NCBI GenBank assembly: GCA_900320245.1
Contig: ONRP01000004.1
Span: 51,444-115,443, forward strand
DNA length: 64,000 bases
Origin: an uncultured Prevotellaceae bacterium
Lineage (GTDB): Bacteria > Bacteroidota > Bacteroidia > Bacteroidales > Muribaculaceae
Reading direction: 5' to 3'
Positions 3,845-42,564 of the stretch are shown piece by piece (positions within the stretch are counted from its first letter, which is position 1; each line of letters begins with the position of its first letter). A model generated the notes under the pieces. The model did no database searches. It was given only the letters and a program-made list of their open reading frames with translations, and had not been told where the DNA came from. The position numbers and the translations under genes are program-made.

Positions 3845-6205
3845 ATGAAGAAATTTTTATTCCTGTTGACCATCGCGTTTGCCGCGATGTCGATGTCGGC
3901 TGCACCTGTTGATCAGGCCACAGCCCAGAAGAAAGCCAAGGATTACCTTGCCCAGGCCTATGCCGGCAAGATCATGTCCCCTAACGCTTTAAACCCCGTG
4001 CTCGTCAAGACCGAGATGTGCAACGGGAAATCAACTCCCGCATTTTACGTTTACAACACCAGCACGACCTTTGTCGTGGTGGCTGCCGATGACCGTGCCG
4101 AGACGATTCTGATGGTCGGCGACAAGCCCCTCCAGGATGTCGAGAACCTGCCCCTGGGTCTCCAGGACATGTTCACCGTGTACAAGGGTGAGATTACCTA
4201 CCTCGCTGAGCATCCCGACCTCAAGGTGGTTGCCAATGTCAAGAACAACTCACTCAATGCCGTAACCTATGGCCCGCTGCTCTCCTGCAACTGGGATCAG
4301 GACGCTCCCTACTGGAACGAGTGCACCTTCAGCGGTTACCAGTGCTACACCGGCTGCCCCGCAACCTCGGCTGCCATGGTGTTCTATTATTGGAAATATC
4401 CCACCGACCCCGCACCCGCACTGCCCGGCTATGCATCAACGATTGATGTTAGTTATTGGAACTCAATCAGTTATACCCACCCGGCAATGCCTTCGGTTAC
4501 CTTCGATTGGGACAACATGCTCGACACCTACACTGGCTCCTACACCAATGCACAGGGTGCTGCCGTTGCCGCGCTGATGCACTATATCGGCCATGCCGAG
4601 CACATGGCGTACGGTACCCAAAGCGCCGGTGGTAGTGGTGTGCACGTTGACAGTGTGGGTAACATCCTCAACGCCTTCCTTATCTGCGGTTATGACCCCG
4701 AGACCACCCACTTCGTGAAGAAGACCAGCGCCTATAGCGGTGGTACCACCCTCTACAGCGATGCCGAGTGGGCAGCAATGATTCAGGAGGAGATGGCCGC
4801 TGAGCGTCCCATCGTCTTCTGCGCCGTTGGTGATGGCGGTCACGCCTTCAACGTTGACGGTTACCGCAGCAACGACAGCAAGTACCACATCAACCTGGGT
4901 TGGAGCGGCGACGGCAATGGCTGGTGCGTGCTCAACTCCTTCGGTGGCGGTGGCTCTGTTTTCAATACCTATCAGCAGATGGTACTCGGTATCCAGCCCC
5001 CCGCACAGGGTCCCTCTATCAAGGTGAACACGACCACCCTGAACATGGAAGCCTTCGTGGGCAAGACCTCTACCGCAACCTTCACCGTCAAGGGTAATGA
5101 ACTTACCAGCAACATCACCCTGACGCTCAATGACCCCGACGGCGCATTTGCTCTCGATGCCACCAGCGTCGCTGTCAGCGACCAGGAGAACGGCAAGGTC
5201 ATCACCGTGACCTATGCTCCTCAGGCCAGCGGCAACCACACCGCCACCATCACTCTGAGCAACCCCGCTGCCGATGACAAGGTGATTACCATCAATGGTG
5301 TCGCAACCCTCGAGACCTTCGTTCCCGAAATGCAACCCGCCAACGAGAACTACATCAACCTGACCAAGTTCCGCGCCGACTGGACCGACCAGACCGATCC
5401 TGCCAATGTCGAGAATTACACCCTCGAGGTTTCTACCCGTCCTGCTGTCGAGTTGCTCGACACCACCGATTGGACCTCGAACAACAATGTGCCTGCAGGC
5501 TGGACCGCATCTGGTCTGAACTATTATGGCTCTAACAGCGCATGCTACCTGTCTTCATATGGCAACAGTTATGTACAGAGCAAAACCTATGACCTTACAG
5601 GATATGACAAGGTGACCGTGATGGTTTACTCTGAGCCCTACGGCAGTTCCAACACCATGACCGTGTCCACCAGCGTTGACACAAAAACTAAGACTCTCTC
5701 GGGTTCCTCATTCTCCTGGTACACCTTCGTCCTGAATTGCGCAAGCAGCGACTATGTGAAACTCACCACCACTGGTTTGCCTGACATGAGGTACATGAAG
5801 GTTTATGCCGGTGACCTGACCGCTGCTATGCAACTCAAGGCTAACGAGGAGGGTGACGCAACCTACCGCCTCATCACCGGTATCACCGACAAGAACTACA
5901 CCGTCAATAATCTCGAGGCTGCTGGCACCTTCTATTACAGAGTGAAGGCCCTCTACATCGACGGTACTCAGAGCGCATGGAGCAACAGCCAGAAGGTTAC
6001 CCTCTTCGAGAACGGTGACGGCTATACTCTTGGCGACGTGAACCACGACCAGAGCGTAGACATCAACGATGTTACCGCACTGATCGCTTACGTGCTGGGC
6101 CAGGGCAACACCATTTGCACTGACTGCGCTGACGTATTTGACGACGACGCTATTGATATCAACGATGTTACCGCACTGATCAACATGGTGCTGGGTATGC
6201 AGTAA
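3845..6205 (+). CDS. Secreted C10 cysteine protease with dockerin-like tail (paralogue 1)
   Basis: The ATG at 3845 is chosen because a signal peptide follows at once (MKKFLFLLTIAFAAMSMSAA). A TTG two codons upstream is less likely. The 786-residue order is: signal peptide; Spi/I69-like propeptide (about 22-140); streptopain-like protease (about 142-385) with nucleophile Cys171 in TGCPATSAAM, His333 in GGHAFNVDGY and the YHINLGWSG strand; Ig-like domain (about 390-490); FnIII/carbohydrate-binding-like region (about 495-720); and two dockerin-type Ca-binding repeats (730-786, GDVNHDQSVDINDV and ADVFDDDAIDINDV). The catalytic pair is intact, so it should be an active protease matured by propeptide removal. 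First of four tandem paralogues. No separate Spi or Bfi inhibitor gene is adjacent. Confidence 0.92.
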   Translation: MKKFLFLLTIAFAAMSMSAAPVDQATAQKKAKDYLAQAYAGKIMSPNALNPVLVKTEMCNGKSTPAFYVYNTSTTFVVVAADDRAETILMVGDKPLQDVENLPLGLQDMFTVYKGEITYLAEHPDLKVVANVKNNSLNAVTYGPLLSCNWDQDAPYWNECTFSGYQCYTGCPATSAAMVFYYWKYPTDPAPALPGYASTIDVSYWNSISYTHPAMPSVTFDWDNMLDTYTGSYTNAQGAAVAALMHYIGHAEHMAYGTQSAGGSGVHVDSVGNILNAFLICGYDPETTHFVKKTSAYSGGTTLYSDAEWAAMIQEEMAAERPIVFCAVGDGGHAFNVDGYRSNDSKYHINLGWSGDGNGWCVLNSFGGGGSVFNTYQQMVLGIQPPAQGPSIKVNTTTLNMEAFVGKTSTATFTVKGNELTSNITLTLNDPDGAFALDATSVAVSDQENGKVITVTYAPQASGNHTATITLSNPAADDKVITINGVATLETFVPEMQPANENYINLTKFRADWTDQTDPANVENYTLEVSTRPAVELLDTTDWTSNNNVPAGWTASGLNYYGSNSACYLSSYGNSYVQSKTYDLTGYDKVTVMVYSEPYGSSNTMTVSTSVDTKTKTLSGSSFSWYTFVLNCASSDYVKLTTTGLPDMRYMKVYAGDLTAAMQLKANEEGDATYRLITGITDKNYTVNNLEAAGTFYYRVKALYIDGTQSAWSNSQKVTLFENGDGYTLGDVNHDQSVDINDVTALIAYVLGQGNTICTDCADVFDDDAIDINDVTALINMVLGMQ

Positions 6206-6246
6206 TCATGCAAGACATCGATTAAACAAAGCGAATTAATCAAATC

Positions 6247-6287
6247 GTGGGGCAGGGGAGCCATCCCTTGCCCCACATTTTTTTTAG
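6247..6287 (+). terminator. Terminator after C10 protease 1 (duplicated copy A)
   Basis: GTGGGGCAGGG pairs with CCCTTGCCCCAC (one bulged base) and is followed by a T-run. The same sequence recurs at 8814-8851 after paralogue 2. Confidence 0.9.
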
Positions 6288-6305
6288 ACTGGTTCTGGAA
6301 AAATG

Positions 6306-6336
6306 TTGGTATTCCGCTCGACTTGCACTATCTTTG
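6306..6336 (+). promoter_or_regulatory. Promoter of C10 protease 2
   Basis: TTG at 6306-6308, 20 bp, TATCTTTG at 6329-6336. The leader is about 45 nt and nearly identical to that of paralogue 1. Confidence 0.8.
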
Positions 6337-6387
6337 TCGCCAATTCCAAACATTAACTATCATTTTTATATTTTTCAAGTTTTGCTT

Positions 6388-8772
6388 ATGAAGAAATTTA
6401 TATTACTGTTGACTATCGCGTTTGCCGCGATGTCGCTGTCGGCCGCCGATGTGTCCTCAACGCAGGCAAAGGCTGCAGCAAGTGCGTTTCTTAACAAACA
6501 AGTAGCCGCAGGGCATATTAAAGCCGCTGCCGCTGCCAACCTCCAACTCGTCAAGGCTGAAGTCTCGGTAGCCAGGCCCACAGCAGTGGACTACTACATC
6601 TTCAACTCGGCGAAATCTTATGTTGTGGTTGCTGGTGATGATCTGGCTCCCCAGATCCTGATGTACGGTGAAAAGGGTGCTCTCGACATTAACAACATCC
6701 CTCCCGGCATGCAGTGGCTGCTCAACAAGTACAAATATCAGATTGACGGTCTGAAGGCCGGTACCATGATGCCGGTGAAACTTCCTAAGTTCGCCACCAC
6801 GCCTGTTGCACCGCTGGTAAACGCTAACTGGGACCAGAGCGCTCCTTACAACAACCAGTGCCCCACCAGTGGCAGTTATCACGCCGTTACAGGTTGCCCG
6901 GCAACCTCGTTGGCTATGTGCTACTACAAGTGGAAATGGCCCGAGACCTATCCCGCAGTAGCCGCCATCTCGTCGGCTTACGGTATTGCCGCTCCTGCTC
7001 TGCCCGAACGTGAAGCCGATTGGGCAAACATCATCGACGAGTACACTGGCCCGAGCAACTACAATTCTACATCCGCGCAGAAGGACGCTGTGGCATGGCT
7101 GATGCGCTATGCTGGCCAGGCTATTCCCGATTATTCTTACGGTATCAGTGCCAGTGGTGCCAACGACCCCGAAATCTATCAGGGTTGCATCAATATGGGT
7201 TACACCGATGCCCAATACCTCTTGCTCACCGAACTTCAGGGTGGTGGTTGGAGCGGCTACTCCAATGGCCCGCAGCAGTACACCGACGCCGAGTGGAACG
7301 AATTCATGCTGAACGAACTCCACAACGGTCGTCCCATCGAGTACCTGGCCTATGACTACAGTGGCTACCAACTTTCGGGTCATGCCTTTAACGTGTTTGG
7401 TGTAAATGCCAGTGGTCAGTACTATGTGAACTGGGGCTGGAGCGGCGACAGCAACGGCTATTGCACGCTGCACAACTTCACCACCGCTACCGGCGCTACT
7501 GGCCAGGCTGGCGCCTATGTCTTCAACTATGGCGAAGCCATGATTATCGGCATCGAGCCTCCCGCTGGCGCGCTTACCGATCCCAGAATCAAGGTTAACC
7601 CCACTACGCTCAACATGAGCACTATTGTGGGCAATCCCGCCACCGCCACATTCAACGTTAAGGGTTACAACCTCGTTGACAATATTGGCTTGAGCATTAG
7701 CGGTGATAATGCCTTCTCGCTGAGCACCACCAATGTCAATGCCAATGCCTCTCAGTCAGAAAATGGTGTGGATGTAACTGTTACCTATAATCCCGCTAAC
7801 CCTGGCAACCACGAGGCTGTTGTCACGTTGACCAGCACTGATGCTCCTGACGTGACGCTCAAGATCAACGGTCTTGCTGAGTTGGAGACCTATGAGCCTG
7901 TGATGCTCGAAGCCGGCAATATCACTTCCACCTCGTTCAAGGCCACCTGGACCGACGAGACCCCTGCCGAGAACGTGGAGAGTTACACCCTGTTTGTGAG
8001 CGCTGAACCCTTCAAGCCCGCAGTTGCCCTGCTCGACACTACCGACTGGACTTCTTCGAATGCTCTGCCTGCTGGCTGGACTTCAAGCGGTTTCAGTTAT
8101 TTTGGTTCCAATAACGCTGCCTACTTGAGTAACAGCGGCTATATACAGACTTGTAACTACGACCTCACAGGCTATGACAAGATGACTGTGATGATTTACT
8201 CTGAGCCCTACGGCAGTAGCAACACAATCACAGTGGCTACCAGTCTTCAGAGCAAGACCATTAACTTGTCTGGCAGTACCTTCAACTGGTACACCGTCGT
8301 TCTGGATTGCGCAACCAATGACCATGTCAAGGTTACTTCTTCTGGTCTACCCGACATGAGGTACATGAAGGTTTATGCCGGTGACCTGACCGCTGCTATG
8401 CAACTCAAGGCCAGCGAAACCGGTGACAAGACCTATCGTGTCATCACCGGTATCACCGACAAGAGTTACACCGTGACCAATCTCACCGAGAATGGCACCT
8501 ACTACTTCTATGTGATGGCCAACTACACCGATGGCGGTGTTTGTGACAGTAACATCGAGGAGGTTACCTTGTTCGGTGAAGCCCACGACTATGAGCCTGG
8601 TGACGTGAACCACGACCAAAGCGTAGACATCAACGATGTTACCGCCCTCATCTCCTATGTGCTGGGCCAGGGCAACACCATCTGCATGACCTGCGCCGAC
8701 GTAACTGCCAACGGCTATATTGATATCAACGATGTTACCGCACTGATCAACCTGTTACTGGGTATGCAGTAA
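6388..8772 (+). CDS. Secreted C10 cysteine protease with dockerin-like tail (paralogue 2)
   Basis: The ATG at 6388 begins the signal peptide MKKFILLLTIAFAAMSLSAA. The open frame extends further 5' across the terminator, but that part is not coding. The 794 residues comprise a propeptide (about 22-140), protease domain with Cys170 (VTGCPATSLAM), His332 (SGHAFNVFGV) and YYVNWGWSG, an Ig-like domain, an FnIII-like region and a dockerin-like tail (738-794). The first dockerin repeat and a 59-bp stretch (8353-8411, matching 5783-5841) are identical or nearly so to paralogue 1, which indicates recent duplication or gene conversion. The protease half is more diverged, suggesting a different substrate preference. 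Confidence 0.92.
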   Translation: MKKFILLLTIAFAAMSLSAADVSSTQAKAAASAFLNKQVAAGHIKAAAAANLQLVKAEVSVARPTAVDYYIFNSAKSYVVVAGDDLAPQILMYGEKGALDINNIPPGMQWLLNKYKYQIDGLKAGTMMPVKLPKFATTPVAPLVNANWDQSAPYNNQCPTSGSYHAVTGCPATSLAMCYYKWKWPETYPAVAAISSAYGIAAPALPEREADWANIIDEYTGPSNYNSTSAQKDAVAWLMRYAGQAIPDYSYGISASGANDPEIYQGCINMGYTDAQYLLLTELQGGGWSGYSNGPQQYTDAEWNEFMLNELHNGRPIEYLAYDYSGYQLSGHAFNVFGVNASGQYYVNWGWSGDSNGYCTLHNFTTATGATGQAGAYVFNYGEAMIIGIEPPAGALTDPRIKVNPTTLNMSTIVGNPATATFNVKGYNLVDNIGLSISGDNAFSLSTTNVNANASQSENGVDVTVTYNPANPGNHEAVVTLTSTDAPDVTLKINGLAELETYEPVMLEAGNITSTSFKATWTDETPAENVESYTLFVSAEPFKPAVALLDTTDWTSSNALPAGWTSSGFSYFGSNNAAYLSNSGYIQTCNYDLTGYDKMTVMIYSEPYGSSNTITVATSLQSKTINLSGSTFNWYTVVLDCATNDHVKVTSSGLPDMRYMKVYAGDLTAAMQLKASETGDKTYRVITGITDKSYTVTNLTENGTYYFYVMANYTDGGVCDSNIEEVTLFGEAHDYEPGDVNHDQSVDINDVTALISYVLGQGNTICMTCADVTANGYIDINDVTALINLLLGMQ

Positions 8773-36252: not shown

Positions 36253-38565
36253 ATGATTGAAAGAACGATTATCATCATTGTAGAACTTATTGCGGCTTTG
36301 ACAGCTGTTGCGGGTACGGTTACAGGCCGCGTGCTGGATGAGAGCCAAATGCCCATGCCCTATGCCAATGTGATGCTGGTGAATCGGGCAGATTCGACCT
36401 TTGTACAAGGTACTACAACGGGTGAGGACGGCAGGTTTGCCTTTATGACAGATTGTAGTGACTGCCTGTTGAAAATAACAAGTGTGGGTTATGTGACCCG
36501 TTTCTTAGAGTCACCTGGAAACAGTATCGGCGATATTGTGATGCAGCCTAACGTCACTCTCCTGGGAGAGGTCGTCGTGCAAGGCCAACGTCCTACTCAC
36601 AAGTTGGGAAAGGAAGGATTGCTCACCAGCGTTGACGGCACTATCCTGAGCAGGCTGGGCACCGCCGAGGATGTGCTGCGCAACGTCCCGGGCGTGCAGA
36701 GCAAGGCCGATGGGTTGGAAGTTTTCGGCAAGGGCAAGCCGCTCATCTACATCAACAACCGCTTGATGCGCGACGCCAATGAACTCAACGAGCTGAAGTC
36801 TCAAGACATCATCAGCGTTGAGGTAATCACCAACCCAGGGGCAAAATATGACGCATCGGTGCAGAGCGTTATCCGCATCAAGACCCGTAAAGCGCAAGGT
36901 GAGGGTTGGGGAGGTCACCTACGCAGCAGTTTCTTTCAGGGTGATATGTCACGTACCTACAATGCTTTCTTATGGAACTACCGCCGCAACGGGTTTGACA
37001 TTTTCGGCACAGTGAGCGACTTTGAGAATGGCTGGTTGCAGAAATATCGCATTACCCAGGACGTCGCTGCCGACACCACATGGCATCAGGACAATCACGG
37101 TCACAGTCAGGGCAATTACAATATCTTGCGCTTAGTATTGGGAATGAATTACCAGTTCAATGACAAGCACTCGGTAGGCGTTCAATACAACAGCAACAAC
37201 CGTCTCAGGGATGTTGACAAAGGCTTTTTTGCTGCTGAAGTGACCGCCAACGGCAATTTCTACGACAGTCTGATGACCAATAGTAAGAATAAAACACGAC
37301 ACAATATGCCGCACTCGCTCAATCTCTATTATAATGGCGAGGCGGGCAAGACCAACATCGATTTCAATGCCGATTACTATTTTACCAAAAACTGCGAGAG
37401 TGAATGTAGCCTTGAGGAGAGCCAAGAGTGGGAAGACCGCACAGTAACCAGTGAGAATACAGTGAGAAATGAACTGTTTGCCGGCAAACTCGTGCTCTCA
37501 TGGCCATTATGGGGAGGTAACCTGTCGGTGGGCAGTGAGATTGACTACACCCATCGCAACGATGATTACCTCAACCCTGAACAGATTGTTCCATCAAGTT
37601 ACACCGAGGTCAAGGAGCACAACTACAGCGCCTTTATCGAGTACAGCCGATTAACACCCATTGGCCAGGTGAGTGGTGGATTGCGTGATGAATATGTTAC
37701 CACCGACTACTACAGTCAAGGCGTTCACATCGAGGAGCAAAGCCGCCATCAGAACCATTTATTCCCAAGCCTATCGTTATCAACTCAGGTGGGCTATGTC
37801 AATATGATGCTTGGCTATGCGATGAAGATTCGCCGTCCCACATATTTTGAACTCAGCAACAAGACCTATTATTCTAACCGCTTCACTTGGCAATCAGGCA
37901 ACCCGTTCCTGAAACCCACCATCATCAACAATCTATCATTTGATGCCACATGGAAATTTCTCTCTCTTAGCATGAGTTACTCCCACCTCAAGGATGTCGT
38001 TCTTCAGTTGGGTCGCCAGATAGAGGGGCACGAGGCCACAACGCTTATCATACAAGAGAATATCGACAATAAGGATGTGTTGAGCATCAGCCTAACCGCC
38101 GCGCCACACATTGGAATCTGGAGCCCACAACTAACGGTCGGTATGATGAAAGAGTGGATGGAGATTCCCATGCCTGATGGCTTTTATCGTCCGTCAAGGC
38201 CCATTTTCATGGCCCAATGGAACAACAACTTCAAATTTATGCCATCTTGCACGGGATCTCTCAATCTCGATTGGCAAGGTACGGGTGACAGCGAGAACAT
38301 TTGCAGCCGCAACCATCAACTTGACCTATACATCGGCCTGACCAAATCGTTCTTTAATGACCGACTGTCAGTTAAGGTTGCGGGGCATGACCTCTTCCAT
38401 CGCAATGGCCAGGACGTGCTGGTACACTTCGGTGAATTGACTCTATGGCAGCACCGCACCAACGAAACCCGCTATGCCGAAGTGACCGTGCGCTACCACT
38501 TCAATTGGACACGCAGCAAGTACAAGGGCACCGGAGCAGGGAATGACGAGAAAAACAGATTATGA
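36253..38565 (+). CDS. TonB-dependent-receptor-like outer-membrane beta-barrel protein (receptor 1)
   Basis: The ATG at 36253 places a signal peptide (IERTIIIIVELIAALTAVAG) right at the N-terminus; an upstream in-frame start at 36202 overlaps the promoter. 770 residues: carboxypeptidase-regulatory-like beta-sandwich (about 22-105; VTGRVLDESQMPMPYANVML, TTGEDGRFAF), plug-like domain (about 110-215; LSRLGTAEDVLRNVPGVQSK), then an OMP_b-brl_3-type barrel to the end (SKYKGTGAG near the C-terminus). No SusD partner is present, so it is not a SusCD pair. Probably an importer or receptor of unknown ligand. Paralogue of the gene at 40255. It shares a 4-bp overlap with the next ORF. Confidence 0.85.
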   Translation: MIERTIIIIVELIAALTAVAGTVTGRVLDESQMPMPYANVMLVNRADSTFVQGTTTGEDGRFAFMTDCSDCLLKITSVGYVTRFLESPGNSIGDIVMQPNVTLLGEVVVQGQRPTHKLGKEGLLTSVDGTILSRLGTAEDVLRNVPGVQSKADGLEVFGKGKPLIYINNRLMRDANELNELKSQDIISVEVITNPGAKYDASVQSVIRIKTRKAQGEGWGGHLRSSFFQGDMSRTYNAFLWNYRRNGFDIFGTVSDFENGWLQKYRITQDVAADTTWHQDNHGHSQGNYNILRLVLGMNYQFNDKHSVGVQYNSNNRLRDVDKGFFAAEVTANGNFYDSLMTNSKNKTRHNMPHSLNLYYNGEAGKTNIDFNADYYFTKNCESECSLEESQEWEDRTVTSENTVRNELFAGKLVLSWPLWGGNLSVGSEIDYTHRNDDYLNPEQIVPSSYTEVKEHNYSAFIEYSRLTPIGQVSGGLRDEYVTTDYYSQGVHIEEQSRHQNHLFPSLSLSTQVGYVNMMLGYAMKIRRPTYFELSNKTYYSNRFTWQSGNPFLKPTIINNLSFDATWKFLSLSMSYSHLKDVVLQLGRQIEGHEATTLIIQENIDNKDVLSISLTAAPHIGIWSPQLTVGMMKEWMEIPMPDGFYRPSRPIFMAQWNNNFKFMPSCTGSLNLDWQGTGDSENICSRNHQLDLYIGLTKSFFNDRLSVKVAGHDLFHRNGQDVLVHFGELTLWQHRTNETRYAEVTVRYHFNWTRSKYKGTGAGNDEKNRL

Positions 38566-38906
38566 AACAGGTGTTGAAATACGTCGATTTGCCGTGGGCC
38601 GTTGTGGGCGTGTGTGAGAGTGAATCATTCACCATCAATCAACTCGTCCACGACGATAGTGTAGAGCAAGCAGTAGAGCATTATGTTATCGGTTACATGG
38701 CTTTCTGGCAGATTGCCTTCATCGAGAAAGAGCGTTTAGTAACTTGCGATGACGATGCCCTGCGCCAGGCAGCCCGCCTCAAGATTGCCCGTTTCATCAA
38801 GAGGCACCCGCTTGTCCAGCGCCTGCCCCGCTTCTATCTCGTGCTACTCAACCAGCCCATCGCTCCGATGGATGCCGACGGCATGAGCCGAGTTTATCAA
38901 GTGTAG
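38562..38906 (+). CDS. Small uncharacterised protein coupled to receptor 1
   Basis: 114 residues. It starts inside the receptor stop (ATGA overlap), which implies translational coupling. No signal peptide or membrane helix. It contains LPWAVVGVCESESFTINQLV, DDSVEQAVEHYVIGYMAFWQ and RFYLVLLNQPIAPMDADGMS. I recognise no family. The second receptor (40255) has no such partner. Likely a real cytosolic gene given its position and normal codon use. Confidence 0.65.
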   Translation: MKQVLKYVDLPWAVVGVCESESFTINQLVHDDSVEQAVEHYVIGYMAFWQIAFIEKERLVTCDDDALRQAARLKIARFIKRHPLVQRLPRFYLVLLNQPIAPMDADGMSRVYQV

Positions 38907-38914
38907 CATGAAGC

Positions 38915-38938
38915 CGTGTCGCGGCTCTGCCGCGGCCT
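38915..38938. repeat. REP-like hairpin, copy 1 (left of RAYT gene)
   Basis: The 24-bp block contains CGCGGC-TCT-GCCGCG (38921-38935), a 6-bp stem with a 3-base loop. It matches the block at 40091-40114 in 23 of 24 positions. Confidence 0.75.
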
Positions 38939-38958
38939 TTTGCCTCTGTCGCGGCCCG

Positions 38959-39924
38959 TTACTGCTGCCGCGTGGTGCAGATGGTCCTCGCCATCTCGTT
39001 GAGGTCGAGGCACTGGCTGCGCTTGATCACTCGCTTGTCGTTGTGATGCTCCCATGGGGCCAGCAGGAGCAGCCGTCCCTCAGCGCAGGCGTTGAACCGG
39101 CGGCCGCCGGGCTTGGCAAGGGGCGCGAAACCGTTCTCTTGGAGCACGATGACGGGAAATCCATATTCAAATGCCGCCTTCATCACTGCCTTTTCGCCGG
39201 GGCTGATGCTTGGCGAAACGAGAACCGCCCCGTTTTGGGCATGTGTCAGGAACTGCTGTACGGTGTCGTGGATTTGCTGTGTCGTGAGTTTGCGGGTACA
39301 TTGCACCTGCATCAGGCACGGGGCATCCAACAAGAAGACATTCCCCAGCGCGGCAAAGGTGAAATCTCCCGCTTTGATGTTTCTCTGGACCCGGAACAAG
39401 TCGGGGTGTGTGCGCTTGATGGACAGGCGGCGCGGGTTGTCAAGGATGTACCGCTTCATGATCTGCAGTTGCCCTTCTTGATCTAGAATGATGTCGTTAT
39501 AGCCGTCCTCCCACAACCCAGCCAGGTCACCCTTGACAAGTTCTCGGTAAGCCCGATTACAACCCACCTTGAAGCCATTGATTACCTTGCCCAGATGCAC
39601 AGGAATCCGCTCCTTGACAAAGAAGATTGCATGCAGGTGGTCCGGCATCAACTGGAAGGTCCAAATCTCAATCTCGGGATAGAATGAGGGAATGTTGACA
39701 AGATTTTGAATCACGGCCCGCCCCAGCGGAGAGGGCTCCACGATGGCCGGTATCGCCTCCCCGTCGCCCGTGAGCGTGCCGAGCAGCGGCCTCCGCTCCT
39801 TGACGACCAGCGTGACCATGTAGATGCAACGGCTCTGGTAGTCATGCCCCACACGGCGCCGTTTCATCGACGGCTTCAAGTCACCGGCCCACTGCTTCTT
39901 GCTCTTGTACCTATCCCAATCCAT
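38959..39924 (-). CDS. REP-associated tyrosine transposase (RAYT, Y1_Tnp) with C-terminal extension
   Basis: 321 residues. Residues about 30-190 are the IS200-like Y1 transposase fold: IYMVTLVVKERRPLLG, the HUH-type metal motif in QLMPDHLHAIFFVKERI, and the helix DIILDQEGQLQIMKRYILDNPRR with the candidate catalytic Tyr in RYILDNP. From about 195 on there is an extra domain (GAVLVSPSISPGEKAVMKAA, then FGFPVIVLQENG-like segment, LAKPGGRRFNACAEGRLLLLAPWEHHND). Its alternating strand/helix pattern recalls Rossmann-like SLOG/DprA domains. The gene is flanked by two near-identical REP-like hairpins, the usual RAYT arrangement. RAYTs cleave and move REP sequences. Confidence 0.82.
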   Translation of the reverse strand: MDWDRYKSKKQWAGDLKPSMKRRRVGHDYQSRCIYMVTLVVKERRPLLGTLTGDGEAIPAIVEPSPLGRAVIQNLVNIPSFYPEIEIWTFQLMPDHLHAIFFVKERIPVHLGKVINGFKVGCNRAYRELVKGDLAGLWEDGYNDIILDQEGQLQIMKRYILDNPRRLSIKRTHPDLFRVQRNIKAGDFTFAALGNVFLLDAPCLMQVQCTRKLTTQQIHDTVQQFLTHAQNGAVLVSPSISPGEKAVMKAAFEYGFPVIVLQENGFAPLAKPGGRRFNACAEGRLLLLAPWEHHNDKRVIKRSQCLDLNEMARTICTTRQQ

Positions 39925-39985
39925 TACGCAAATTTACCCTAATTGCTCCACCCTGGCAAGCAATCGAGCAGGTTTTTTCACTCAA

Positions 39986-40004
39986 GCCGGGGCGCAGCCC
40001 CGGC
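39986..40004. repeat. Perfect GC-rich palindromic hairpin
   Basis: GCCGGGGC-GCA-GCCCCGGC, an 8-bp stem with a 3-base loop. The shorter core GGGGCGCAGCCC recurs at 25088-25099. Confidence 0.75.
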
Positions 40005-40090
40005 ACGGGGAACCAGCGCCCCTGTTGCCACCTGCCTGCCCCCCTTGCTGCCACCAGCCCGCCCCCCTCGGTTGCTGCCTGCTCGGTTCT

Positions 40091-40114
40091 CCGTGTCGCG
40101 GCTCTGCTGCGGCC
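40091..40114. repeat. REP-like hairpin, copy 2 (right of RAYT gene)
   Basis: A direct-orientation match to copy 1 at 38915-38938, with one C-to-T difference in the stem (CGCGGC-TCT-GCTGCG). Confidence 0.75.
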
Positions 40115-40161
40115 ATTTCAGCCCTTTTGTGGCAAGAAAATGCAGTTTTTCTCTTGGATCT

Positions 40162-40254: not shown

Positions 40255-42564
40255 ATGAAACGGAACTTTTTAACGATGATGATGGCGCTGCTGGCCGTGC
40301 TGGCCGCTACCGCCGACACGTTTACGGGCTGCGTGGTCGACGAGACACAGGCGCCTGCCCCCTTTGCTAATGTGGTGCTGTTAAGCGCCAACGACAGCGC
40401 CTTTGTCGCCGGAACGACGACTGGTGCCGATGGCCGGTTCACCCTCACAGGCCATGCCGCAAGGCCTATCATCAAAATTACCTATCTGGGCTACAAAACG
40501 CAGGTGCTGGAAGCAGCAGGCTGCGACTTGGGCACAATCGCTCTGGAACCCGATGCCACCATGCTGGGCGAGGTCGTCGTCAAGGGCCAGCGCCCCGCTT
40601 TCAAACTGACCACCGAGGGCCTGAAGACCGAGGTGGAAAACACCCTGCTCAGCAAGGTGGGCACCGCCAAGGCCGTGCTTGAGAATCTCCCGGGCGTGCA
40701 GCGCAAGAAGGACGGTCTGGAGGTCTTCGGCAAGGGCACGCCACTCATCTACATCAACGGCCGCAAACTCCAAAGCCAGACCGAACTGGACCAGATCAGC
40801 AGCGAGGACATCCAGAGTGTGGAACTGATTACCAGTCCCGGTGCGAAATATGACGCCACGGTCGGGTCGGTCATCCTCATCAAGACCAAGCGGCCGCAAG
40901 GCGAGGGCTTCAGTTTCAACACCCAGGCCAGTTACTACCTGGGTGAGGGTCCCGACTTGGCGCTTGGCCTGAACTGGAACTACCGCCATCGGGGGCTGGA
41001 CGTGTTCGGAAGCGTGTGGTATAACGATGACAGGTACCTGGAGAATGATGACTTTGTCTTTGACGTGCAGGCTGACACCACATGGCGCATGAATGAGCAT
41101 TCCGACATTAAGACCCACAGCAACTCGATTTACTCCTCGGCGGGTGTGAACTATATCTTCAATGATAACCACTCGATGGGTTTCCGCTATGACACCAAGG
41201 CCTTTTTTCTGGACCGCACCCGGGGCACCTTCACCGCCGACGTGATGGCCAACGGCGAGTTTTATGACCACCTGGAAAATGGTGTGCACATGTCCAGCAA
41301 GTTCAACATGCCCCACACCCTCAACGCCTACTACAACGGCAAGGTGGGCAAGACTTCGATTGACTTCAACACCGACTACGTCTTCCACAAGGAACGCGAG
41401 AGCCAGTTCAACGACGAGGTGAGTCAGGAGTGGGAGAGCCGCACGGTGACCAGTACCAGCGTGATCCGCAACCAACTGTGTGCGGCCAAACTCGTCCTGT
41501 CATGGCCGCTGTGGGGCGGCAACCTGCAAGTGGGCAGCGAGTATGACCACACACACCGCAACGACGACTACATCAACCCCGAGCAGGTCGTCCCCACGTC
41601 CTTTACCGAGCAGAAGGAGCACAACTACATCTTCTTTGCCGAGTACGGCCATCCGCTGCCTTTCGGCCAGTTAAAGGTCGGTCTGCGCAACGAGAACGTC
41701 AACACCGACTATTACAGCCAAGGCATGCGCATGGCCGAGCAGAGCCGTAACTATCACCACTTCTTCCCCAGCGTGGGCCTGGTGGCACGGGCGGGCAATG
41801 TGCAACTGATGCTGAACTATGCGATGAAGATTAAACGTCCCGGCTATTGGCAACTGCGAAACAGCGTCACCTATGCCAACCGTTTCACATGGGACAGCGG
41901 CAACCCCCTACTCAAGCCCACCATCAACAACGAGGTGTCGCTCATGGCGATGTACAAGTGGGTCAATCTGATGCTTGCCTACAAGCACGACCGTGACGTG
42001 ATCGTCAATGTGGCTCACGAGATACCCGGCAGCGAGGCCACCACACTGATGAGTAACGAGAATGTGGACCACAAGGATGCCATGCGCGTGATGCTCACCT
42101 TCTCGCCCCGCTTCGATTTCTATCAACCATCTCTCACTTTGGGTGTCATCAAGGAGTGGATCAAGATACCGTCGCCTATCGGCTTCATCTCCCCCAAGAA
42201 CCCCGCCTATATCGTGCAGTTCAACAACAATTTCCAGATTCTGCCCACGCTGACGGCCAACGTCAACTTCAATTTCACCAGCCGTGGCGATATGGAAAAC
42301 GTCACCATCTCCCAGCCACTCTATCTGCTCGACATCGGCGCCACCAAGACCTTCCTGAACGACCGCCTGTCCATCCAGGTGACCGGCCACAACCTGCTTG
42401 ACTCACAAGAGCACTATAAACTGCGTTACGGGCTGCGCACGATGTGCCAGACCCAGCGCCGCGATGCCCGTGAGGTGGAATTCACCGTGCGTTATAAGTT
42501 CAATGCCACGCAGAGCAAGTACAAAGGCACCGGTGCCGGCGCCAGCGAGAAGGAAAGGCTATAA
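40255..42564 (+). CDS. TonB-dependent-receptor-like outer-membrane beta-barrel protein (receptor 2)
   Basis: 769 residues. Signal peptide MKRNFLTMMMALLAVLAATA; carboxypeptidase-regulatory-like domain (about 22-105; FTGCVVDETQAPAPFANVVL, GADGRFTLTG); plug-like domain (GTAKAVLENLPGVQRKKDGL, VFGKGTPLIYINGRK); OMP_b-brl_3 barrel to the C-terminus, ending with the same SKYKGTGAG pattern as receptor 1. The two proteins align along their whole length. No SusD-like gene adjoins. It likely binds or imports an unidentified substrate at the outer membrane. A terminator follows. Confidence 0.87.
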   Translation: MKRNFLTMMMALLAVLAATADTFTGCVVDETQAPAPFANVVLLSANDSAFVAGTTTGADGRFTLTGHAARPIIKITYLGYKTQVLEAAGCDLGTIALEPDATMLGEVVVKGQRPAFKLTTEGLKTEVENTLLSKVGTAKAVLENLPGVQRKKDGLEVFGKGTPLIYINGRKLQSQTELDQISSEDIQSVELITSPGAKYDATVGSVILIKTKRPQGEGFSFNTQASYYLGEGPDLALGLNWNYRHRGLDVFGSVWYNDDRYLENDDFVFDVQADTTWRMNEHSDIKTHSNSIYSSAGVNYIFNDNHSMGFRYDTKAFFLDRTRGTFTADVMANGEFYDHLENGVHMSSKFNMPHTLNAYYNGKVGKTSIDFNTDYVFHKERESQFNDEVSQEWESRTVTSTSVIRNQLCAAKLVLSWPLWGGNLQVGSEYDHTHRNDDYINPEQVVPTSFTEQKEHNYIFFAEYGHPLPFGQLKVGLRNENVNTDYYSQGMRMAEQSRNYHHFFPSVGLVARAGNVQLMLNYAMKIKRPGYWQLRNSVTYANRFTWDSGNPLLKPTINNEVSLMAMYKWVNLMLAYKHDRDVIVNVAHEIPGSEATTLMSNENVDHKDAMRVMLTFSPRFDFYQPSLTLGVIKEWIKIPSPIGFISPKNPAYIVQFNNNFQILPTLTANVNFNFTSRGDMENVTISQPLYLLDIGATKTFLNDRLSIQVTGHNLLDSQEHYKLRYGLRTMCQTQRRDAREVEFTVRYKFNATQSKYKGTGAGASEKERL

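Follow-up and report, generated by a model that had tools for sequence, protein, structure and literature searches.

How REPs spread is poorly understood; the associated transposase, TnpAREP, processes REP single-stranded DNA in vitro (PMC8266576). We analysed a 64,000-nucleotide stretch of DNA from an uncultured Prevotellaceae bacterium (hereafter the window), which carries a RAYT gene whose product runs well past its Y1/HUH domain, and asked what this C-terminal extension is, what it might contribute to REP processing and whether the gene is accompanied by REPs. The original prediction had proposed a RAYT transposase fused to a SLOG/DprA-like domain. Our best reading of the sequences is that the locus represents something new, a RAYT that accompanies REPs and ends in a SLOG domain derived from DprA, and that would form a Bacteroidales subclass. 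The features on which this reading is built are collected in the table.

Table. Features of the RAYT locus in the window
Feature	Position	Strand	Basis
RAYT-SLOG gene	38959..39924	(-)	ORF, ATG start, 321 aa
Y1/HUH domain, residues 1-178: H96-L-H98, W138, Y159, N163-P164	39391..39924	(-)	PF01797 and invariant residues
Probable DprA-type SLOG domain, residues 180-321, core ~186-318	38962..39387	(-)	PDB profiles, hhalign, bridging sequences
REP-like hairpin, 3' side of gene	38910..38941	(+)	Model R1, 39.0 bits
REP-like hairpin, 5' side, inner of inverted pair	39981..40012	(-)	Model R1, 35.7 bits
REP-like hairpin, 5' side, outer of inverted pair	40087..40118	(+)	Model R1, 44.2 bits
REPIN-like inverted pair, 5' side of gene	39981-40118		Two R1 matches

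The fused gene claimed in the original prediction is present as such, with an intact Y1/HUH domain followed in frame by a conserved C-terminal domain. The protein has the hallmarks of RAYT/TnpAREP proteins, namely the HUH motif, a single catalytic tyrosine and the Y---NP signature. Pfam Y1_Tnp (PF01797) covers residues 84-161 with 28.8 bits, above its cut-off of 23; NCBIfam NF047646 (REP-associated tyrosine transposase) covers residues 84-166 with 39.7 bits, below its cut-off of 80, indicating a distant RAYT subclass and not an equivalog by NCBI's standard. H96, H98, Y159, N163 and P164 are invariant in all 30 aligned family members with complete frames. The residue about four positions after the tyrosine is described as the third metal ligand (PMC6006769), and the invariance of the HUH histidine pair, the tyrosine and N163 suggests that the catalytic core is intact. 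The window's genome (G000) encodes five family members, the other four 29-52% identical to the window protein, and near-identical copies of the IS200/IS605 type were not found in it. In a Prevotella-like branch (L020, L021, L022 and others), low-complexity inserts of variable length separate HUH motif and tyrosine; L020, for instance, has repeats like AAAEPQPTEKGG there.

Beyond about residue 178 the protein continues in frame into a tail that is conserved and has a dN/dS of about as low an order as that of the Y1 part; both strings quoted in the original prediction, GAVLVSPSISPGEKAV and LLLLAPWEHHNDKR, are present in the protein. Two ordinary kinds of tail were considered and rejected. No HTH model, as would be expected for a tail of the subclass 2.1 type, was among the 10 Pfam families matched by 33 tails at E <=1. 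A common transposase tail is rejected because the same order also has shorter RAYT-like frames that lack the tail (G038, 168 aa; G055, 176 aa; G058, 166 aa) and the tail is conserved as a separate domain. Before alignment A2 was made, rows with an incomplete frame (L019, L041) or a broken frame (L021, L048) were removed, as were L008, L011, L016, L032, L035, L040, L045 and duplicate loci; alignment A3 additionally omits L018, L022 and L051, and alignment A5 is without six of the near relatives in A2 and without L065, L066, L071, L076-L078 and L082-L084.

The tail carries the motifs GN..LL, VQCSR, GAVLVSPxISPGEK, KP, LLLLAPW and LN.MA. When a profile of 33 tails was searched against 177,635 PDB sequences, DprA entries took the first three places (E 0.025-0.028; next match E 0.6), and a wider 44-tail profile returned the same three together with 3uqz as its top four (E 0.049-0.098; next 0.52). 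We take the top three, 4ljk, 4ljr and 5mll, to be H. pylori DprA, which agrees with where Arg52, Lys137 and Arg143 fall in the chains (offset 4), and 3uqz is presumably S. pneumoniae DprA. In the PDB register, GN..LL followed by VxCxRxLT (VQCSRxLT in the window protein), lying on GDTKLLDTPLKVAIIGTRRPT, corresponds to the first strand and the GSR motif of DprA. Profile-profile comparison by hhalign of the tail with 31 DprA proteins of the phylum gave 81.6% (score 40.6, 97 columns), against maximum scores of 32.8 for 100 column shuffles, 17.2 for the reversed alignment and 18.4 for the family's own Y1 part. Two matches to the tail profile serve as bridging sequences: L083 (G606:C86), a 675-aa frame of tandem DprA-like halves, the second of which is the half matched by the tail profile and hits PF02481 at 4.5e-10; and L065, a 156-aa frame without Y1 motifs that reaches 8.4e-5 against PF02481, below the cut-off. 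With both added, hhalign rose to 93.1% over 125 columns and the alignment extended to the RNR helix. A purpose-built DprA model detected one of the 44 tails and L083 at E 0.1 (L065 fails, at E 5.2) and none of 440 shuffled sequences.

The DprA/SLOG-like part of the original prediction is thus borne out by several profile tests and not by single sequences: none of 33 tails scanned singly matched PF02481 or a SLOG model at E <=1, and single-sequence searches with the tail returned no DprA or SLOG match. Weak E-values (all above 0.02 in the PDB), the lack of a Pfam match and column shuffles of the tail alignment that exceeded 20% probability in two of 100 cases, one of them reaching 48%, could mean that the domain is another alpha/beta fold resembling DprA by chance, but PDB searches, hhalign and bridging sequences converge on one register and make this highly improbable. 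A DprA-type SLOG ancestry of the tail is, in our assessment, very probable, and we read the tail as a shortened DprA-derived SLOG domain in which SPxISxxE has replaced the SGxAxGID loop.

The Rossmann domain of DprA mediates both ssDNA binding and dimerisation, and Arg52, Lys137 and Arg143 are reported to be crucial for ssDNA binding by the H. pylori protein (PMC4489622). R211 of the window protein aligns with Arg52, the arginine of GSR, and is kept in 36 of 44 members, and N309 aligns with the asparagine of RNR (43 of 44); the Arg143 position is L308. With the loop rewritten and a leucine at the Arg143 position, DNA binding by the tail may be lost. The pocket region is strongly conserved and unlike that of DprA (S241 in 43, E244 in 44, K271 in 42 and P272 in 44 of 44 members). 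The original prediction had suggested that the combination may sense a ligand or hold ssDNA; a surface that is partly kept and partly remade would be compatible with a grip on DNA, with dimerisation and with ligand binding. Across six orthologues (15 pairs), omega was 0.045-0.19 for the Y1 part and 0.049-0.125 for the tail; the closest pair, the window protein and L008 (Y1 0.19, tail 0.11), gives the cleanest estimate because dS is near or above 1 in most pairs. Judged by these substitution rates, Y1 domain and tail alike are under purifying selection.

These residue patterns bear on two other readings of the tail. It might be a SLOG-fold remnant that serves folding or dimerisation only and binds neither DNA nor ligand, as suggested by the loss of the DprA glycine loop and of the Arg143 equivalent and by a DprA alignment that stops at the RNR helix, so that the last DprA strands seem to be missing; we consider this unlikely given an omega of as low an order as that of Y1 and 12 residues invariant in the 33 aligned sequences. 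It might also be a regulatory sensor that, as proposed for SLOG domains of other systems, binds a nucleotide or a signal derived from one, and that turns REP cutting on or off; we regard this as possible but doubtful. The pocket that is conserved yet unlike DprA speaks for a sensor, as does the activation of SIR2-SLOG ThsA effectors by cADPR isomers (PMC11204291). The short C-terminal tail of E. coli TnpAREP modulates its activity, and removal of its last 13 residues makes the enzyme more active (PMC8266576), so the C-termini of such proteins can regulate. Against a sensor, the closest profile relatives are DprA, a DNA binder, and no signal-making gene was found among the immediate neighbours examined (two outer membrane protein (OMP) genes and a gene for a 114-aa protein).

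A search of genome contigs retrieved 15 related loci, seven of them full length and 74-93% identical to the window protein. Family matches occur in 36 of 61 genomes (the window's own, 36 of its genus and 24 of the order): within the genus 30 of 37 genomes, counting that of the window, contain a relative, and six of the 24 from the order outside the genus match, five of these six in the Y1 part only. Near relatives bear the names Muribaculaceae, Prevotellaceae or Bacteroidales and come mostly from ruminants. The tail profile matched in 14 of 295 genomes sampled across the order and three of 296 sampled across the phylum, with the window's genome in both counts; the other two phylum matches are L083, the DprA-like protein, and L084 (E 2e-4), which is probably a chance match. 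Of 30 distinct frames of at least 150 aa that matched the tail profile, 27 have HUH and tyrosine motifs, the tyrosine motif being loosened to allow P, A or I after Y...N; only L065, L083 and L084 lack them. Within this sample of order and phylum genomes the fusion is thus confined to the order.

Flanking hairpins named in a test that the original prediction had proposed, although it drew no tie to a REP/REPIN system of the RAYT gene, are real: covariance model R1 has only three matches with E <0.1 in the 64-kb window, all of them at the RAYT gene, and positions 38914-38941 and 40091-40118 form a direct repeat (93%). A REPIN consists of two REPs in inverted orientation that form one unit, and the window has a complete inverted pair on one side of the gene only. 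GC-rich hairpins, with at least one inverted pair each, lie close to the gene in all eight close orthologues (the window and L008-L014) and flank it on both sides in seven, L010 having them upstream only. The hairpins are of one kind, with a 5' foot C-Y-R-T-G, an 8-bp stem and a loop of 3-4 nt, and the asymmetric foot is kept in both hairpins of inverted pairs. The two flanking units are direct repeats, 114/122 identical in L014 and 123/140 columns in L012, with only 68/96 in L009. In an alignment of 33 hairpins, 32 of them distinct, 95.3% of cells are paired, and neither the pairing nor the covariation score was reached by any of 500 shuffles; two-sided changes are seen in four of eight pairs, a count that 11 of 500 shuffles reached, and 16 of 500 reached the count of types. 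Distant paralogues adjoin other hairpins, for example one common to L002, L042 and L043, which is what separate REPs for the different subfamilies would predict.

We searched 24 of the 37 genus genomes with R1 at E <=0.01, scoring at most 150 candidates per genome, so that counts may be low; R1 was built from flanks of several of the genomes later searched with it. The 14 carriers, defined by full-length matches with an identity of 59% or more to the window protein, hold 4-58 R1 sites among the at most 150 candidates scored per genome (4, 5, 7, 8, 11, 11, 13, 14, 16, 18, 25, 53, 53 and 58), a modest 4-25 in 11 of them. Seven genomes without any family match have 0, 0, 0, 0, 1, 1 and 2 sites, and the three whose family members are all more distant have 0, 1 and 3, genomes without the RAYT gene being less complete on the whole. 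Training hairpins came from 12 of the 14 carriers, one to three from each; the two carriers that contributed none, G029 and G034, have 5 and 53 sites. Three of the 18 sites (E <=0.01) in the window's genome lie at the RAYT gene. Hairpin copy number thus tracks a close full-length RAYT orthologue in the 24 genus genomes searched.

In two genomes, same-orientation arrays hold most REP copies. These arrays are syntenic and switch polarity sharply (L086-L091, G036:C3 80-200 kb; L092-L095, G035:C21 1-80 kb): 20 plus-strand REPs (89.7-111.4 kb) are followed by 17 minus-strand REPs (128.4-185.8 kb) on G036:C3, a 354-kb contig with no full-length REP site outside the array at E 0.001, and 18 plus by 15 minus on G035:C21. 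A position at the replication origin was considered and rejected, with dnaA on other contigs and GC skew too noisy for origin or terminus; one idea is that the polarity switches at the replication terminus.

Two outer membrane beta-barrel genes (PF14905) flank the window's RAYT gene, which adjoins a gene at 38562-38906 for the 114-aa protein; this protein has no Pfam match and is found in 13 of 41 genus genomes. The RAYT gene stands alongside it in two of these 13 (G000, G008), and the same gap lacks the RAYT gene in six (G002, G023, G031, G032, G036 and G625; loci L151, L153 and L155-L158); four of the 13 could not be judged. G016 lacks both the RAYT gene and the second OMP gene, and its match stops inside the REP: at L154 (G016:C131, ~1441-1480) the left flank is 96.8% identical, breaks at window position 38922 and resumes at window position 42530. 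G002 and G036 combine the empty site with a close RAYT orthologue elsewhere in the genome. Neighbour genes differ in part from carrier to carrier, which makes gain, loss and rearrangement indistinguishable. The idea that the gene moves cleanly as one unit was rejected, given the mixed states in the 13 genomes and the partly exchanged neighbours. At L155 (~5300-6800), an ATPase-like gene (MANEIIGREQEIAILQACT...) occupies the site of the window's RAYT unit. The sole R1-type hairpin among the six RAYT-less gaps is at L158 (27.6 bits); L151, L153 and L155-L157 contain one to several copies of another palindrome, CTCCGTAACG...CGTTACGGAG, possibly another REP-like or terminator family.

Such palindromes, which occupy this gap in five of the six relatives that lack the RAYT gene, and the fact that the hairpins adjoin genes in the gaps looked at would also suit ordinary transcription terminators or unrelated palindromes that are not RAYT substrates. 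We consider this quite improbable for the R1 hairpins, because their copy number follows the RAYT gene in 24 genomes, the CYRTG foot is retained across inverted pairs and the flanking units of L014 repeat each other directly.

With slightly better than even confidence, we propose that a RAYT/TnpAREP subclass gained a DprA-derived SLOG C-terminus within Bacteroidales, and that the SLOG domain dimerises and/or holds ssDNA during REP processing. TnpAREP binds and cuts single-stranded REP hairpins in a strand-specific manner (PMC8266576). Modelled on REP processing by E. coli TnpAREP in vitro, the Y1 domain would recognise and nick the single-stranded REP hairpin on an exposed strand, during lagging-strand synthesis or repair; cutting of these particular hairpins is proposed from membership in the RAYT family. 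The SLOG domain would contribute a surface for dimerisation and a hold on ssDNA beside the hairpin that depends little on sequence, and could thereby keep the two REPs of a pair together in a single complex, or else donor and target, a role that we infer from DprA ancestry and partial residue conservation. A further step, that the captured DprA module couples REP cutting to recombination, with the SLOG domain holding the freed strand and aiding annealing or RecA loading, seems distinctly unlikely to us, and we are just as hesitant about its corollary that REP pairs and the pair-gene-pair unit are copied or moved via ssDNA intermediates. Site absence in relatives, direct-repeat flanks and REP array polarity fit this recombination reading and do not prove it.

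The proposed REP-processing RAYT with a SLOG tail resembles several known systems and differs from each. Like RAYT/TnpAREP class 2 (PMC6006769), the family combines HUH and Y---NP with a few divergent paralogues per genome and adjoining REP-like hairpins, but it has a C-terminal DprA-type domain and a 5' foot CYRTG in place of GTAG. The RAYT distal domains described by Quentin et al. 2018 are HTH-like (subclass 2.1) or subclass-specific (2.3), and those subclasses whose C-terminal domain is large are presented there as not REP-associated (PMC6006769), whereas the long protein of the window family does accompany REP-like hairpins; DprA is absent from the main text of that paper. Like DprA/Smf (PF02481), the tail has the GN/GD..LL, strand and GSR/CSR register and the core order through the RNR helix, but its core is shorter, lacks DprA's extra domains and is fused to a Y1 domain, with SPxISxxE for SGxAxGID and the Arg143 equivalent not kept. 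Inverted REP pairs with a spacer adjoin the RAYT gene and more copies lie elsewhere, as for REPINs (PMC3116915), yet carriers here hold 4-58 copies, with at most 150 candidates scored per genome, compared with more than 100 for usual REPs (PMC2817692). In the open-licence literature searched, we found neither a pairing of RAYT with DprA nor a fusion of DprA to the C-terminus of an HUH transposase, and the RAYT-DprA combination seems to be undescribed.

The DprA fusion hints at an activity missing from the pathway by which REPs spread, which could be to hold the single strand, to protect or anneal it, or to load RecA. It would extend DprA/SLOG domains to HUH nucleases and offers a defined protein with its own hairpin that can be compared with and without the domain. 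For Bacteroidales, it would provide a RAYT-REP system with recognisable hairpins.
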